Source: Candidatus Iainarchaeum sp.
GTDB taxonomy: Archaea > B1Sed10-29 > WALL01 > JAGHAM01
Length of the DNA stretch: 24,815 nt
NCBI GenBank assembly: GCA_021161465.1
Contig: JAGHAM010000008.1
Location: 1-24,815 of the forward strand
Reading direction: 5' to 3'
This document shows positions 1-15,598 of this stretch, piece after piece. The translations under genes and the position numbers were made by a program. Numbering within the stretch: position 1 is the stretch's first letter; each line of letters begins with the position of its first letter. Below the pieces are notes generated by a model. It had not been told where the DNA came from. It made no database searches and saw only the letters and a list, made by a program, of their open reading frames with translations.

Positions 1-236
1 ACCCTCGACCTCTCGCTCTCTCGAACCTGAGGCTTGCGCGAAGCGCAACCTCTAAAGCGCCAGCCGATTTTGCGGCTGTACCTGGTGCCCTTACGCGTAG
101 CGTAAGAAATCACTGGTACTTGGACAAAGTCCAGCGCCTGTTGTTCACATGGTGCTTGCGCGTAGCGCAACACCTAAAGCGTGAACCAATTTCGCGGTTC
201 TACGAGGCGAGCGCTCTACCTCTAAGCTACCGAGGC
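1..236 (-). tRNA. tRNA-Thr(CGU), 3' end cut by window edge, with 183-nt intron
   Basis: Read on the minus strand, position 236 begins acceptor strand GCCTCGG, followed by T8, a D-arm (stem GCTT/GAGC), anticodon stem CTCGC (211-207) and a loop with anticodon CGT (204-202). The matching anticodon 3' strand GCGAG is at 16-12, then variable AGGTC and T-stem strand GAGGG, and the window ends at T54. Bases 200 to 18 are therefore an intron at the canonical 37/38 position. The splice region forms a textbook bulge-helix-bulge: exon stem CTCGC/GCGAG, bulge AGA, four-pair helix CTCG/CGAG, bulge TAG, outer helix AACC/GGTT. A TATA-like run lies on the minus strand at about 258-272. The acceptor 3' strand and discriminator lie outside the window, so the acceptor stem cannot be checked. 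Confidence 0.88.
18..200 (-). other. Intron of tRNA-Thr(CGU), highly structured
   Basis: This 183-nt intron is long for an archaeal tRNA intron. It is nearly all hairpins. Two copies of a 50-nt two-hairpin module lie at 151-200 and 29-78. Between them are a perfect hairpin at 90-106 (CTTACGC stem, GTA loop on plus) and a short one at 121-133 (TGGAC / GTCCA). I see no convincing protein in it; the open frame crossing it is short and composed of stem sequence. Boundaries follow from the bulge-helix-bulge geometry. Confidence 0.82.
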
Positions 237-347
237 TTACGATAATTAGGGTTGACCTTATTAAAAAGTGTAGCCATGTTGTATGGTATATCATCGGGAA
301 AGATTTAGCTACAGTATCAACAAACAACCATACAGTATTAGTTAAAG

Positions 348-7099: not shown

Positions 7100-7858
7100 T
7101 CATTTACTTTTATAAGCAAACTCTTCTTGGATTTTCTTAATGACCGTAGTATAAGATACAGGTTTGTTCGTTAAATGATTGATATCTTCATCCCATCTCG
7201 AGTAGATCTTTCTAGCGTTTTTGAAGATCCTTTCGACATCAAAACTCTCGCCTGCTTCGGTCATTTTTTTATCAAGTAATCCTCTGTCGACATGGCATCC
7301 TTTTTCCAATAGATTATAGACATCGTAGTAGTCTCTGGGTTGGTTTCTCATTAGCATGGCTCTCATTTTTTCTGCTATTAGTTCTTCGGGGGAGATTGTC
7401 CTAATCTTAAAACCAGGGATTGAATCATAAAAGTGAGGTATTGTCTTTACTTCTGGTTTTCTGTGGACTGACGCTTTCCTGTTCACATCAAGAATAATAT
7501 GATTCTTCGAGAAACTGCTTTTATAAAAGATTTTCAGGCAGAAAAAGTTTTTTGTCTGGTTTTCGAATACGTAACCAGGAAAGATACTTTTGTTCTCATT
7601 TAAGATTTTGACTATTTCTCCCTTTGTCTTCTCTAAATTTCCGGTGCAAGTGAAATCTAGGTCTTCGCTGAGACGCGTGTGATTAAGGAATATTTTGTTC
7701 AGGGCGGTACCTCCCTTGAAGCAAATTCCGTCAACGTCCTTAAGCAGGTAGAGTAGTATTGTGAGGAAGTAGTCTTTCTCCAAGTAGATTAGATTGAACC
7801 CTGTCTTGCCTGCAAGGTGTTTTAGCTCCGACTTGCTAATCAACGTGATTTTAGCCAT
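7100..7858 (-). CDS. AbiEii/AbiGii-family nucleotidyltransferase toxin
   Basis: A 252-residue nucleotidyltransferase-fold protein. The active-site signature is K48-G-G-T-A-L-N-K followed by R-L-S-E-D66-L-D68-F, the paired aspartates that bind metal in this family. Members act as the toxin of type IV toxin-antitoxin or phage-abortive systems; relatives modify tRNA 3' ends with nucleotides. The gene overlaps the 3' end of its partner antitoxin by 19 bp, indicating translational coupling. Motifs and length look intact. It lies between repeat copies A and B, and its stop codon is 8 bp from copy A. The target in this organism is not visible. Confidence 0.92.
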   Translation of the reverse strand: MAKITLISKSELKHLAGKTGFNLIYLEKDYFLTILLYLLKDVDGICFKGGTALNKIFLNHTRLSEDLDFTCTGNLEKTKGEIVKILNENKSIFPGYVFENQTKNFFCLKIFYKSSFSKNHIILDVNRKASVHRKPEVKTIPHFYDSIPGFKIRTISPEELIAEKMRAMLMRNQPRDYYDVYNLLEKGCHVDRGLLDKKMTEAGESFDVERIFKNARKIYSRWDEDINHLTNKPVSYTTVIKKIQEEFAYKSK

Positions 7859-8337
7859 TTTTCAACCTTCTCTTTTGACAGTATCCTGAAAGAATGTCCC
7901 CCAATTTTTTTCTCCACAACTCCTTTCATGCTTTCTGGTCTTATTCTCTTGAAAACAAGGGTGAAACCAAAAATCTTTCTTTTCCCTTGCTTGTTTGTGC
8001 AAGCGACTTCTATCTGTGTGGGTATCTGGTCAACTAGACCCCAGTAATGGGCTGCGGATAATCCCTTGATAAAGTAGTTTTTCCCGTTGAAAATCTCGTC
8101 TGCGATTACGAAAGGGTGTTCTGCCCAGAATCCCCCTGAAGCTTTTACAGGAATGAGGAAGTACTTGGTTTTGTTAAGTTTCACTATTCGCTTTTTTTTC
8201 TTGAGTCTGTGCAGGTATACATTCATCTCGTTCTCGTTCTTGAAAAATTTTTTCGCGTCGTTTCGTGTGAAAAAGTATTTTTCTTTCAGTTCAAGAAAAG
8301 AAACAAGTCCTATTTCTTTACTTGAAATACCCTCCAT
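7840..8337 (-). CDS. AbiEi-type antitoxin / transcriptional regulator
   Basis: A 165-residue protein with an N-terminal winged-helix-like part (about 5-60: F-T-R-N-D-A-K-K-F-F, then basic K-K-K-K-R-I-V-K-L). The C-terminal AbiEi domain has the family landmarks S-A-A-H-Y-W-G-L and I-P-T-Q-I-E-V-A. These proteins silence the AbiEii toxin and repress the operon by binding promoter repeats. ATG at 8337 is chosen over the upstream TTG (8349) because GGTG sits six bases before it. A TATA-like run on minus is at about 8375-8390. It precedes and overlaps the toxin gene, the usual order. DNA-binding residues cannot be judged by eye. Confidence 0.87.
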   Translation of the reverse strand: MEGISSKEIGLVSFLELKEKYFFTRNDAKKFFKNENEMNVYLHRLKKKKRIVKLNKTKYFLIPVKASGGFWAEHPFVIADEIFNGKNYFIKGLSAAHYWGLVDQIPTQIEVACTNKQGKRKIFGFTLVFKRIRPESMKGVVEKKIGGHSFRILSKEKVEKWLKSR

Positions 8338-8410
8338 TTGATACACCAAAATTAACGTTTTTTTAATATTACTGTAACAAGTTTTATTTAATACTTTTGT
8401 TTATTATTTT

Positions 8411-9031: not shown

Positions 9032-9280
9032 TTATTGTTTGTCCTTGTGGTATAAATCAAGAAAAACAACAGTGTCTTTGCTTGGGACATACAAATAGGA
9101 CAAACGGAAAGGAGCTACGTAAACTTCTCTGGTTCCTTTCCGTGAAAACCGCATCGGTTTTCCTATGCCAGGATTGGCAAGTATTTTAGCGATCTGTTTC
9201 TTGACTCTTTCTTTCAATGCTTTGTCTTTTATTTTCTTGACCCGTCTCTTGAAAACCGTGTCAAAAGCAACTTTTACCAT
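9032..9280 (-). CDS. RelE/ParE-superfamily toxin
   Basis: An 82-residue basic protein of the RelE fold. It opens with two charged helices (F-K-R-R-V-K-K-I-K, then A-L-K-E-R-V-K-K-Q-I), then has the strand set G-T-R-E-V-Y-V-A-P-F-R-L-S-Y-L and V-V-F-L-D-L-Y-H-K-D at the C-terminus. The R-L-S-Y and Y-H-K-D ends are typical of RelE-type ribosome-dependent mRNA interferases; ParE-type gyrase inhibition cannot be excluded. Its ATG overlaps the end of the AbrB-type antitoxin gene by 7 bp, so the two are translationally coupled. Its stop is 5 bp from repeat copy C. No residue is obviously missing. Confidence 0.88.
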   Translation of the reverse strand: MVKVAFDTVFKRRVKKIKDKALKERVKKQIAKILANPGIGKPMRFSRKGTREVYVAPFRLSYLYVPSKDTVVFLDLYHKDKQ

Positions 9281-9543
9281 GTTCCAAGCTCTTCCAAAAA
9301 CTCTTTTTTACTCATCTTCTTAAACTTACCTTTCTCATAGCGTTTAAGCACTTCTTCAGTTCGCTCAGCGAAACGAATGTCCTCAGCTATATTCTCCCCG
9401 AAGCCTTTGACACTCCTTAGGATGAACTTATTGCCACTCCTAATAACTATAAAGTCTTCTCCTTTCTTGAAACCCTTACGCATATCGCTAGGGATAACAA
9501 TCTGACCCTTTGAACTCATTCTGGTGACGCTAATATTAGACAT
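9274..9543 (-). CDS. AbrB/SpoVT-type antitoxin
   Basis: An 89-residue protein. The N-terminal swapped-hairpin AbrB domain reads S-V-T-R-M-S-S-K-G-Q-I-V-I-P-S-D-M-R-K-G-F and continues to about residue 46. A charged C-terminal helix (from 55) would bind and neutralise the toxin. AbrB-type antitoxins form dimers that bind palindromic operators and repress their own operon. The ATG at 9543 is leaderless, with TATA-like ATTTAAGG on plus at about 9568-9575 and a perfect 16-bp palindrome between TATA and start. It overlaps relE by 7 bp. It is the module nearest the tRNA-Ser gene. Confidence 0.9.
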   Translation of the reverse strand: MSNISVTRMSSKGQIVIPSDMRKGFKKGEDFIVIRSGNKFILRSVKGFGENIAEDIRFAERTEEVLKRYEKGKFKKMSKKEFLEELGTW

Positions 9544-9562: not shown

Positions 9563-9625
9563 ATCATATTTAAGGCTTTCGCTGTATCTTTCCGAGAAAA
9601 AAGAATATGAGCGCTGGGGGCGAGA

Positions 9626-9687
9626 TTCTCCATCCCTCAAAGGAGAAGGGCTTATAAGGGAGGAGGGAACGTGTCCCTCCTCCTTAT
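9626..9687 (-). other. Second intron of tRNA-Ser(GCU), in the T-loop (about 59/60)
   Basis: About 62 nt interrupt the T-loop between TTCAAA and T60. The insert is dominated by a 14-15-bp hairpin (ATAAGG-AGGAGGGA against its complement, loop CACG) and a second stem TTCTCC/GGAGAA. The bulge-helix-bulge is weaker than at the anticodon site, with three pairs in the central helix, so the exact ends could shift by one or two bases. The purine/pyrimidine-rich hairpin with a T-run on plus also resembles a terminator, which I consider the lesser reading. Confidence 0.62.
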
Positions 9688-9719
9688 TTTGAACTCGCGT
9701 GAGCTAACGCTCACCGGCT

Positions 9720-9808
9720 ATCCATAACCGACGCTCATAACCGTGCACTCTTGAACCGTGCGCTTGAGCGAAGCGAAACGCACAAAGCGTTAACCGATTT
9801 TGCGGTTA
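9720..9808 (-). other. First intron of tRNA-Ser(GCU), position 37/38
   Basis: An 89-nt intron at the canonical site, bounded by bulges TAT and ATA and outer helix AACC/GGTT; the central helix is relaxed, with two wobbles and one mismatch. It carries one copy of the two-hairpin module (9758-9808) also present twice in the tRNA-Thr intron. CGGTTATG occurs twice in tandem near its 3' end. Confidence 0.78.
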
Positions 9809-9830
9809 TAGCAGGCCGGCGCAATACCGA

Positions 9831-9872
9831 GCTATGCGACCCCAGCTTGTGGAATCTTATGGAGAGTCTTGT
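9831..9872. repeat. 42-bp direct repeat, left copy (tRNA-Ser 5' end plus upstream)
   Basis: It comprises the first 16 bases of the tRNA-Ser gene and 26 bp of its upstream region. The right copy is at 12081-12122 in the same orientation, with 37 of 42 identical. The two copies bound a 2.2-kb segment holding two genes. Confidence 0.75.
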
Positions 9873-15158: not shown

Positions 15159-15167
15159 CTAGAAGTA

Positions 15168-15433
15168 GTGGACATGCTGGGATGGGAAGTTGCCGGGAAA
15201 ACAGCTTAGCCCCTAATGCCCCTCGATCCTGAACCCCTGAAAGCGCCCCAAGCATTCGATAGGGCTGCTCCCGTCAAGGCCTGACCCGATTCACGGATGC
15301 TCAAGACCAATCAGGACAGGATGTCAGCAGAGCAATAGGGAGCCATCCTCCAGACAACAACCTCTCCCAGCTTCACTCCCCCATAAGGCGGATTTGAGGT
15401 TACAGGAGACCGCCAACCTCCCAGCTAGTCCAC
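15168..15433 (-). ncRNA. ffs: SRP RNA (archaeal 7S RNA)
   Basis: About 266 nt on minus. The ends pair as archaeal helix 1: GTGGAC-TA-GCTGGGA with TCCCAGC-AT-GTCCAC. The Alu part shows the helix 3 stem GGCGG/CCGCC enclosing the conserved TGTAAC loop. The S domain has the helix 8 signature GGTCAGG ... GAGCAGCC with its asymmetric internal loop, the binding site of SRP54. A TATA-like GATTTAAAAAC on minus lies at about 15455-15466, the right distance for transcription. The apical loop of helix 8 is unusual (see findings). End positions are set by the helix 1 pairing and may be off by a few bases. Confidence 0.93.
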
Positions 15434-15598
15434 CACTAATTATTTTGTCTGCTTTGTTTTTAAATCTGATGTAGTGCTATCAAAGGCAATAGGATAGAAT
15501 TTCAATAAAAAATAGTGCCTAAAAGAGCGCGCATGGTTAAAATCGCTAAAGAGATTGCTCGAAACGGTTAGAAAAGCAAACTAAGCGCTTTTTTACAT

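Follow-up and report, generated by a model that had tools for sequence, protein, structure and literature searches.

What is the 62-nt stretch that interrupts the T-loop of a tRNA-Ser(GCU) gene in this archaeal genome, and how could a tRNA encoded in this manner be matured? A sequence-only reading of the locus had proposed that the stems of this tRNA all pair only if 62 nt are removed from the T-loop as well as 89 nt from the anticodon loop. It interpreted the T-loop insert as a second, non-canonical intron, argued that its removal needs a splicing endonuclease of broad specificity and considered this situation, described for this one tRNA, unexpected in such a genome. We followed up these claims in the window, i.e., the whole 24,815-nt stretch of DNA analysed, and in other parts of the genome and its relatives. 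As set out below, the 62 nt very likely represent an EndA/RtcB-type tRNA intron at position 59/60, which is one copy of a family that has spread into most tRNA T-loops of this genome.

Results

The tRNA-Ser(GCU) gene carries two inserts

Removal of both inserts restores a complete class II tRNA (Table 1). The acceptor stem (GCTGGGG, 9846-9840, paired with CCCCAGC, 9619-9613, with the discriminator G at 9612), the anticodon stem (CCGGC/GCCGG) and the long variable arm (GAGC-GTTA-GCTC) can all form, the T stem is perfect across the insert (GCGAG, 9698-9694, with CTCGC, 9624-9620), and exon 3 pairs with exons 1 and 2 without mismatch. Excision of the 89 nt (9808-9720) generates a normal 7-nt anticodon loop, CUGCUAA, with the anticodon GCU, whereas excision of exactly 62 nt (9687-9626) generates a normal T-loop, UUCAAAU, and places the insert at site 59/60. 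The claim that the stems pair only once both segments are removed thus held, and the coordinates assigned to the T-loop insert proved exact.

Table 1. Features on the minus strand of the window.
Feature	Position	Strand	Details
tRNA-Ser(GCU) gene	9612..9846	minus	Two introns; length 234 nt plus discriminator G; with the 89 + 62 nt removed, every stem pairs
Exon 1	9809..9846	minus	5' strands of the acceptor and anticodon stems, with the D arm between them; loop CUGCUA up to position 37
Canonical 37/38 intron	9720..9808	minus	89 nt, anticodon loop
Exon 2	9688..9719	minus	3' strand of the anticodon stem, variable arm, 5' strand of the T stem, T-loop 54-59
T stem 5' strand GCGAG	9698-9694	minus	In exon 2
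T-loop 54-59 UUCAAA	9693-9688	minus	In exon 2
Putative T-loop intron, site 59/60	9626..9687	minus	62 nt, family A
Exon 3	9613..9625	minus	U60, 3' strands of the T stem (CTCGC) and of the acceptor stem (CCCCAGC)
tRNA-Thr(CGU)	1..237	minus	Large intron in the anticodon loop; 5' end near 237; gene cut off by the contig end at T54, which is window base 1

Exon 1 is 80-92% identical to the tRNA-Ser 5' exons of relatives, and the 37/38 intron has homologues in the orthologous gene of the nearest relative (L018) and in tRNA-Ala genes of the same genome (contigs C33 and C28). An intact second tRNA-Ser(GCU) gene, which would have spoken against the intron reading, was looked for, and none was found in the 93%-complete genome; a BLAST search with the 5' exon (E<=0.001) returned no other match in the genome. 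The codons AGC and AGU make up 150 of the 6413 codons in the ORFs of the window. ARAGORN did not find any tRNA in the window, and Rfam at the gathering score also missed the gene, with the archaeal SRP RNA as its sole match in the window; RF00005 searched against the genome did not recover it either. These failures are expected because the intron sits in the T arm. Taken together, the interpretation as a second, non-canonical intron is supported, since the cloverleaf is exactly restored, a BHB-type central helix is available at the splice sites, the insert is missing from the orthologue and the search for a second tRNA-Ser(GCU) was negative; excision itself is inferred, without RNA evidence.

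A group I intron was ruled out as the identity of the insert, given its length of 62 nt, compared to a catalytic core of more than ~200 nt, and the lack of an Rfam match at the gathering score in the window. Elsewhere in the window, the SRP RNA gene (15166-15435, minus strand) is uninterrupted, as judged by its Rfam match. ORFs read by eye include a toxin-antitoxin-like AbrB-like and RelE/ParE-like pair adjoining the tRNA gene (9032-9543, minus strand) and an AbiEi/AbiEii-like pair, likewise toxin-antitoxin-like (7100-8349, minus strand).

T-loop inserts are found in most tRNA genes read

Our tRNA inventory of the 976-kb genome is partial. It comes only from targeted stretches, chosen around matches to the B box (GGTTCRAA), RF00005 matches and BLAST matches, so that tRNAs whose T-loops differ may have escaped it. 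The only requirements of the scan script were pairing in the acceptor and T stems, a match to the A-box pattern and the sequence UUCRA, and an insert in the T-loop was allowed. Of the 34 complete tRNA genes read in these stretches, 30 contain T-loop inserts, ranging from 13 to 321 nt, and the acceptor and T stems beside them are free of mismatches in 30/30 cases. The T-loop is uninterrupted only in the remaining four, specific for Asn, Tyr, Leu(UAA) and initiator Met. In addition, at least 30/34 genes contain additional sequence on the 5' side of the T stem, corresponding to anticodon or D-loop introns, and the intron total reaches at least 60 in the 34 genes. RF00005 detects 8 tRNAs in this genome, while four relatives from the same order yield 30, 37, 44 and 20.

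BLAST revealed copies of the 62-nt insert, 86-100% identical to it, within further tRNA genes of this genome. The insert is more than a chance occurrence, since homologous inserts share its T-loop position in many other tRNA genes. Its framing as an oddity of a single tRNA therefore failed, with T-loop inserts in 30/34 complete genes and related ones in sister genomes. The framing as unexpected in such a genome also needs correction: multiple tRNA introns have already been reported for ARMAN-1/2 (PMC4033280), so that membership in the DPANN group does not by itself make them unexpected.

Several contigs end at T-loops or within T-loop inserts (window base 1, C5, C25, C32 and C34). A 3' half matching tRNA-Thr(CGU), T-loop insert included, opens contig C32 (C32:1-160), and contig C5 (G000:C5:1-260; G000 being the genome under study) likewise ends in a tRNA-Thr(UGU) gene, with the start of C32 as the shared 3' half. 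tRNA-Ser 3' halves are located at the contig ends G000:C25:1-225, C34:6520-6844 and C20:1-122, and contain T-loop inserts of ~200 nt or more that differ in their internal units. Two further genes have peculiarities of their own. tRNA-Cys (L004:763-845, G000:C10) shows an unusual T arm, with TGCGACTGCGCAAGCAAAT in place of a 7-nt loop, which could conceivably be another T-loop intron with a changed loop. The initiator tRNA-Met (L005:170-265, G000:C30) has a D-loop that is ~15 nt longer than that of its counterpart in the nearest relative.

The inserts form families

Family A (UUCAAAAUAAGG...), which includes the Ser insert, is represented in 13 tRNA genes and family B (UUCAAAAAGAAGGGUUGCACCC... 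and variants) in 11, with the other 6 of the 30 T-loop inserts having other sequences. Multi-unit inserts, arranged in tandem or nested, are found in Met, Arg, Leu, Gly(CCC), Ile(UAU) and Arg(GCG) genes. Similar introns thus occur in different isotypes, with 86-100% identity between copies, which meets one criterion for transposition. Strong copies of the inserts lie inside tRNA genes, save for a few fragments just downstream of tRNA genes. The T stems flanking the inserts covary, as does the first hairpin of family A, in which 97% of the cells are paired, 7 pairs show two-sided changes (3.4 in shuffles), 17 cells are changed on both sides (6 in shuffles) and slid versions perform far worse; copies within family A, and within family B, are not independent. 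A pattern search of viral contigs returned 19 short matches to the family A core, and the family B hairpin had no match among the viral contigs searched.

Repeats were also observed at other intron sites. In the tRNA-Asp gene of the nearest relative (L275), the anticodon-loop intron contains the family B T-loop hairpin (AGAAGGGCTCCGCCCTTTCTAAACCC), which raises the possibility of an exchange between intron sites. A second repeat family (ACCGCAAAATCGGTTAACGCTTT or near variants) is present in anticodon introns of Ser, Ala and Thr and in the D-loop intron of Gly(GCC), with locations including window 9720-9808 (minus strand), L052 and L173.

Most inserts contain a complement to the near-invariant part of the T-loop

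All 30 inserts start after UUCAAA, UUCGAA or UUCAAG and end in U60. In 26/30, a 4-bp complement to UUCR (positions 54-57) is found together with a 3- or 4-nt bulge ending in U60, compared to a mean of 1.2 and a maximum of 7 in shuffles. In the Ser insert, two hairpins are followed by UGGA (9632-9629), the complement of UUCA 54-57, then by GAA and U60. When 43 T-loop introns from six genomes or contigs were compared with the register fixed on bases 54-56 only, base 57 covaried with its partner: opposite A57, the intron has U in 22 cases and never C; opposite G57, it has C in 7 cases and U in 1. We conclude that the complement to positions 54-57 corresponds to the central helix of a BHB motif in which the T stem acts as the outer helix.

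The splice site was placed after base 59 because G59 of tRNA-Met, present both in this genome (UUCAAG) and in the nearest relative (UUCGAGU), is kept while the base before U60 varies in this genome. Splicing of the Ser precursor at 57/58 or 58/59 would give an equal mature sequence, yet was rejected in favour of 59/60, since U60 is kept as well and the base preceding it varies freely.

The strict canonical motif (hBHBh', with 3-nt bulges and an adjoining inner helix) is not met in Ser, and most other inserts of this genome are similar. For 11 inserts of this genome, Ser included, the best 4-bp register requires a 3' bulge of 4 rather than 3 nt. An inner helix that directly continues the central helix is limited to 0-1 bp in 29/30 inserts (1 bp in Ser), with separate hairpins in its stead. 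Moreover, the full central helix is absent from the minimum-free-energy fold of the isolated arm in most of the 43 inserts, again including Ser. The splice motif of this genome is thus relaxed or forms a junction. In the Micrarchaeota contig L113 and in the relative G014, the direct inner helix comprises 4 bp and 7 bp, respectively, and the inserts look canonical.

The genome encodes an alpha-type EndA

The EndA of this genome was also classified. PF01974 and PF02778 identify a single locus, which encodes a 170-aa, alpha-type protein that keeps the Tyr, His and Lys residues of the catalytic triad. It aligns almost continuously with M. jannaschii EndA (1a79) over residues 3-169, without an inserted loop, and this alignment does not reveal any CSL- or ASL-type loop. 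A search of the genome with the N-terminal domain returned only the same gene, and neither a beta subunit nor a ~390-aa three-unit EndA was found in the 93%-complete genome, although the missing 7% could hide one. The same architecture is seen in relatives, including G001, G012 and G014. RtcB is also present in the genome.

The alpha4 enzyme of M. jannaschii is described as narrow in specificity, whereas (alpha-beta)2 and epsilon2 enzymes are broad and cleave relaxed BHB motifs (PMC6379350), with CSL or ASL loops being needed for this breadth (PMC12397907). The real surprise is therefore the enzyme: the sole EndA found is of the alpha type, and relaxed-BHB cleavage is assigned to the other two forms (PMC6379350). 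It is possible that alpha-type EndA is broader than the rule states, that the full precursor offers an acceptable motif or that another factor contributes.

T-loop introns predate this genome

The relatives named by FtsZ are Diapherotrites and Micrarchaeota MAGs. In the nearest of the genomes compared (G001, same family), tRNA-Ser(GCU) has a homologous anticodon intron and an intact T-loop, UUCGAAU, and the T-loops of at least 16 matching isoacceptors, Ser(GCU) included, are uninterrupted, as determined by matching the isoacceptors of the two genomes by eye. This comparison meets the transposition criterion of recent gain with absence from orthologues. The first survey of G001 was based on RF00005 matches and hence biased towards uninterrupted genes; BLAST searches with the inserts from the genome under study added 3 interrupted ones to the single case already noted. 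T-loop introns of G001 are found in Leu(CAA), Leu(CAG), Gly(CCC) and Arg(UCU) and are related to family B. The more distant G012 (same class) has its own T-loop intron family in two tRNA-Val and two tRNA-Pro genes, and others in Phe and Arg. Related T-loop inserts are thus present in the independently assembled genomes G001, G012 and G014, and their occurrence in G001 and G012 implies that T-loop introns are older than the genome under study. Family A had no BLAST match in the relatives and is so far known only from this genome.

Five tRNAs that carry family A or B introns have A57 where G001 has G57, whereas three with unrelated short introns have kept G57 (Fisher p = 0.018). This pattern fits either co-conversion of the exon flank with the intron or a compensatory change.

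Further observations concern tRNA-Ser genes in other archaea. Introns at 59/60 were seen in a distant archaeon (L034, G030; 34 nt) and in Micrarchaeota bin-2344 (L113; 21 nt, with a direct inner helix). In same-order relatives, the tRNA-Ser 3' end (CTCCCCCCCAGCGC or similar) is repeated 93-466 nt downstream (L022:1602/1720, L027:1574/1749, L038:1576/1669 and L019:1630/2096), an arrangement reminiscent of a duplication or an integration scar in the T arm. A relic of the 3' exon within the Ser intron, as predicted by an integration model, was not seen by eye.

Discussion

Our results show that the Ser insert lies at 59/60, that it has homologues in other T-loops and is absent from the orthologue, that complementarity and covariation exist at the splice site and that EndA and RtcB are present; its excision, the enzyme responsible and the mode of its spread are inferred. 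In the precursor, the T stem would provide the outer helix, and the near-invariant UUCR (54-57) would pair with YGRA near the 3' end of the intron to form a 4-bp central helix. EndA would then cleave after base 59 and ahead of U60, within the bulges on either side of this helix, and RtcB would join the exons. Nearly every tRNA supplies the same exon half of the motif, so that such an intron should be spliceable from any tRNA in which it lands and could therefore spread, with copying by recombination or conversion between T-loops as the likely route. A bolder reading, which we regard as no better than an open wager, holds that a plain alpha-type EndA removes relaxed, junction-bearing T-loop introns from nearly every tRNA and that these introns behave as selfish elements at the RNA level, with a splice motif based on the universal UUCRA of the T-loop, making any tRNA gene a safe landing site. 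It would contradict the rule that reserves the removal of relaxed introns for (alpha-beta)2 and epsilon2 enzymes.

Other explanations need to be considered. The interrupted genes could be decayed or silent and invaded by repeats, with functional tRNAs encoded elsewhere or imported from a host. DPANN archaea are often host-dependent, the inserts are repetitive and in some cases multi-unit, with up to 321 nt, and the genome is only 93% complete. However, the stems flanking the inserts are intact in 30/30 cases, an intact second tRNA-Ser(GCU) was not found, and most isoacceptors would be missing from the cell if the interrupted tRNAs were dead. Dead genes would also not keep splice-site complementarity and covariation, which leaves this scenario with very little likelihood. 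An assembly artefact, in which metagenomic repeats were misjoined into tRNA genes, can be practically dismissed. Repeats did disturb the assembly, as several contigs end at T-loops or T-loop inserts, but the inserts lie between the matching halves of many tRNAs with gene-specific flanks, base 57 and its intron partner match gene by gene, and the same kind of insert is found in the independently assembled G001, G012, G014 and L113.

It is also conceivable that the inserts are not removed by EndA acting on a BHB motif but, for instance, by self-splicing or another nuclease. In favour of this idea, the sole EndA found is of a type described as narrow (PMC6379350), and many inserts show either no contiguous inner helix or a bulge of 4 nt. 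On the other hand, group I and II introns are far longer than inserts of 13-67 nt, Rfam at gathering scores did not report any group I/II match in the window, the splice-site complementarity is exactly as expected for a BHB intron at 59/60, and both EndA and RtcB are present. We therefore hold this alternative to be highly improbable and favour removal by EndA and RtcB.

If the favoured interpretation is true, a DPANN group joins the hyperthermophilic Thermoproteales in displaying large-scale transposition of tRNA introns, and one internal tRNA site is shown to be almost saturated. The invariance of the exon half of the splice motif would suggest why T-loop introns can spread, and the link between EndA type and intron repertoire would become directly testable. 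The RF00005 counts (8 here, 20-44 in relatives) illustrate that standard tRNA searches can miss most tRNAs, which can mislead estimates of completeness and codon usage for such genomes.

Transposition of tRNA introns is known from Thermoproteales (2010 work, as described in PMC4090602 and PMC4033280). As in that group, very similar introns reside in unrelated tRNAs, with several per gene and at non-canonical positions, and the intron density is comparable to that of Pyrobaculum calidifontis, whose 71 introns in 46 genes (PMC8450103) represent the highest published density that we found. Unlike the Thermoproteales, which belong to the Crenarchaeota, the present genome is from a DPANN lineage with Micrarchaeota/Diapherotrites MAG relatives, its 59/60 site is almost saturated (30/34 genes), its inserts are two-hairpin or multi-unit, with up to 321 nt, and its EndA is of the alpha type. 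Archaeal introns at 59/60 have been described among scattered positions, mainly in Crenarchaeota and Nanoarchaeota (PMC4090602). The position and the need for a BHB or relaxed BHB motif for removal are the same here, but most of the tRNA set is affected. No report of T-loop introns in Micrarchaeota or Diapherotrites was found in the open-access literature searched.

ARMAN-1/2 are similar in being small DPANN-type archaea with multiple, non-canonical tRNA introns, which they combine with an epsilon2 EndA (PMC4033280, PMC6379350, PMC12397907). The ARMAN-2 enzyme is a 390-aa three-unit protein that needs its ASL for breadth, whereas the EndA found here consists of one unit of 170 aa and has no comparable insertion. 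Gain at the DNA level, as proposed here, has also been proposed for the tRNA-Thr intron of Caldiarchaeum, in that case via a mobile element (PMC3293823), but the present inserts are small and non-coding, and neither a recombinase gene nor a 1.8-kb element accompanies them. Thus, the 59/60 position, the transposition of tRNA introns and the multiple introns of ARMAN-1/2 were already known. What is new is the lineage in which they occur, that one site is nearly saturated, that inserts can be multi-unit and that the EndA type apparently does not match the introns.
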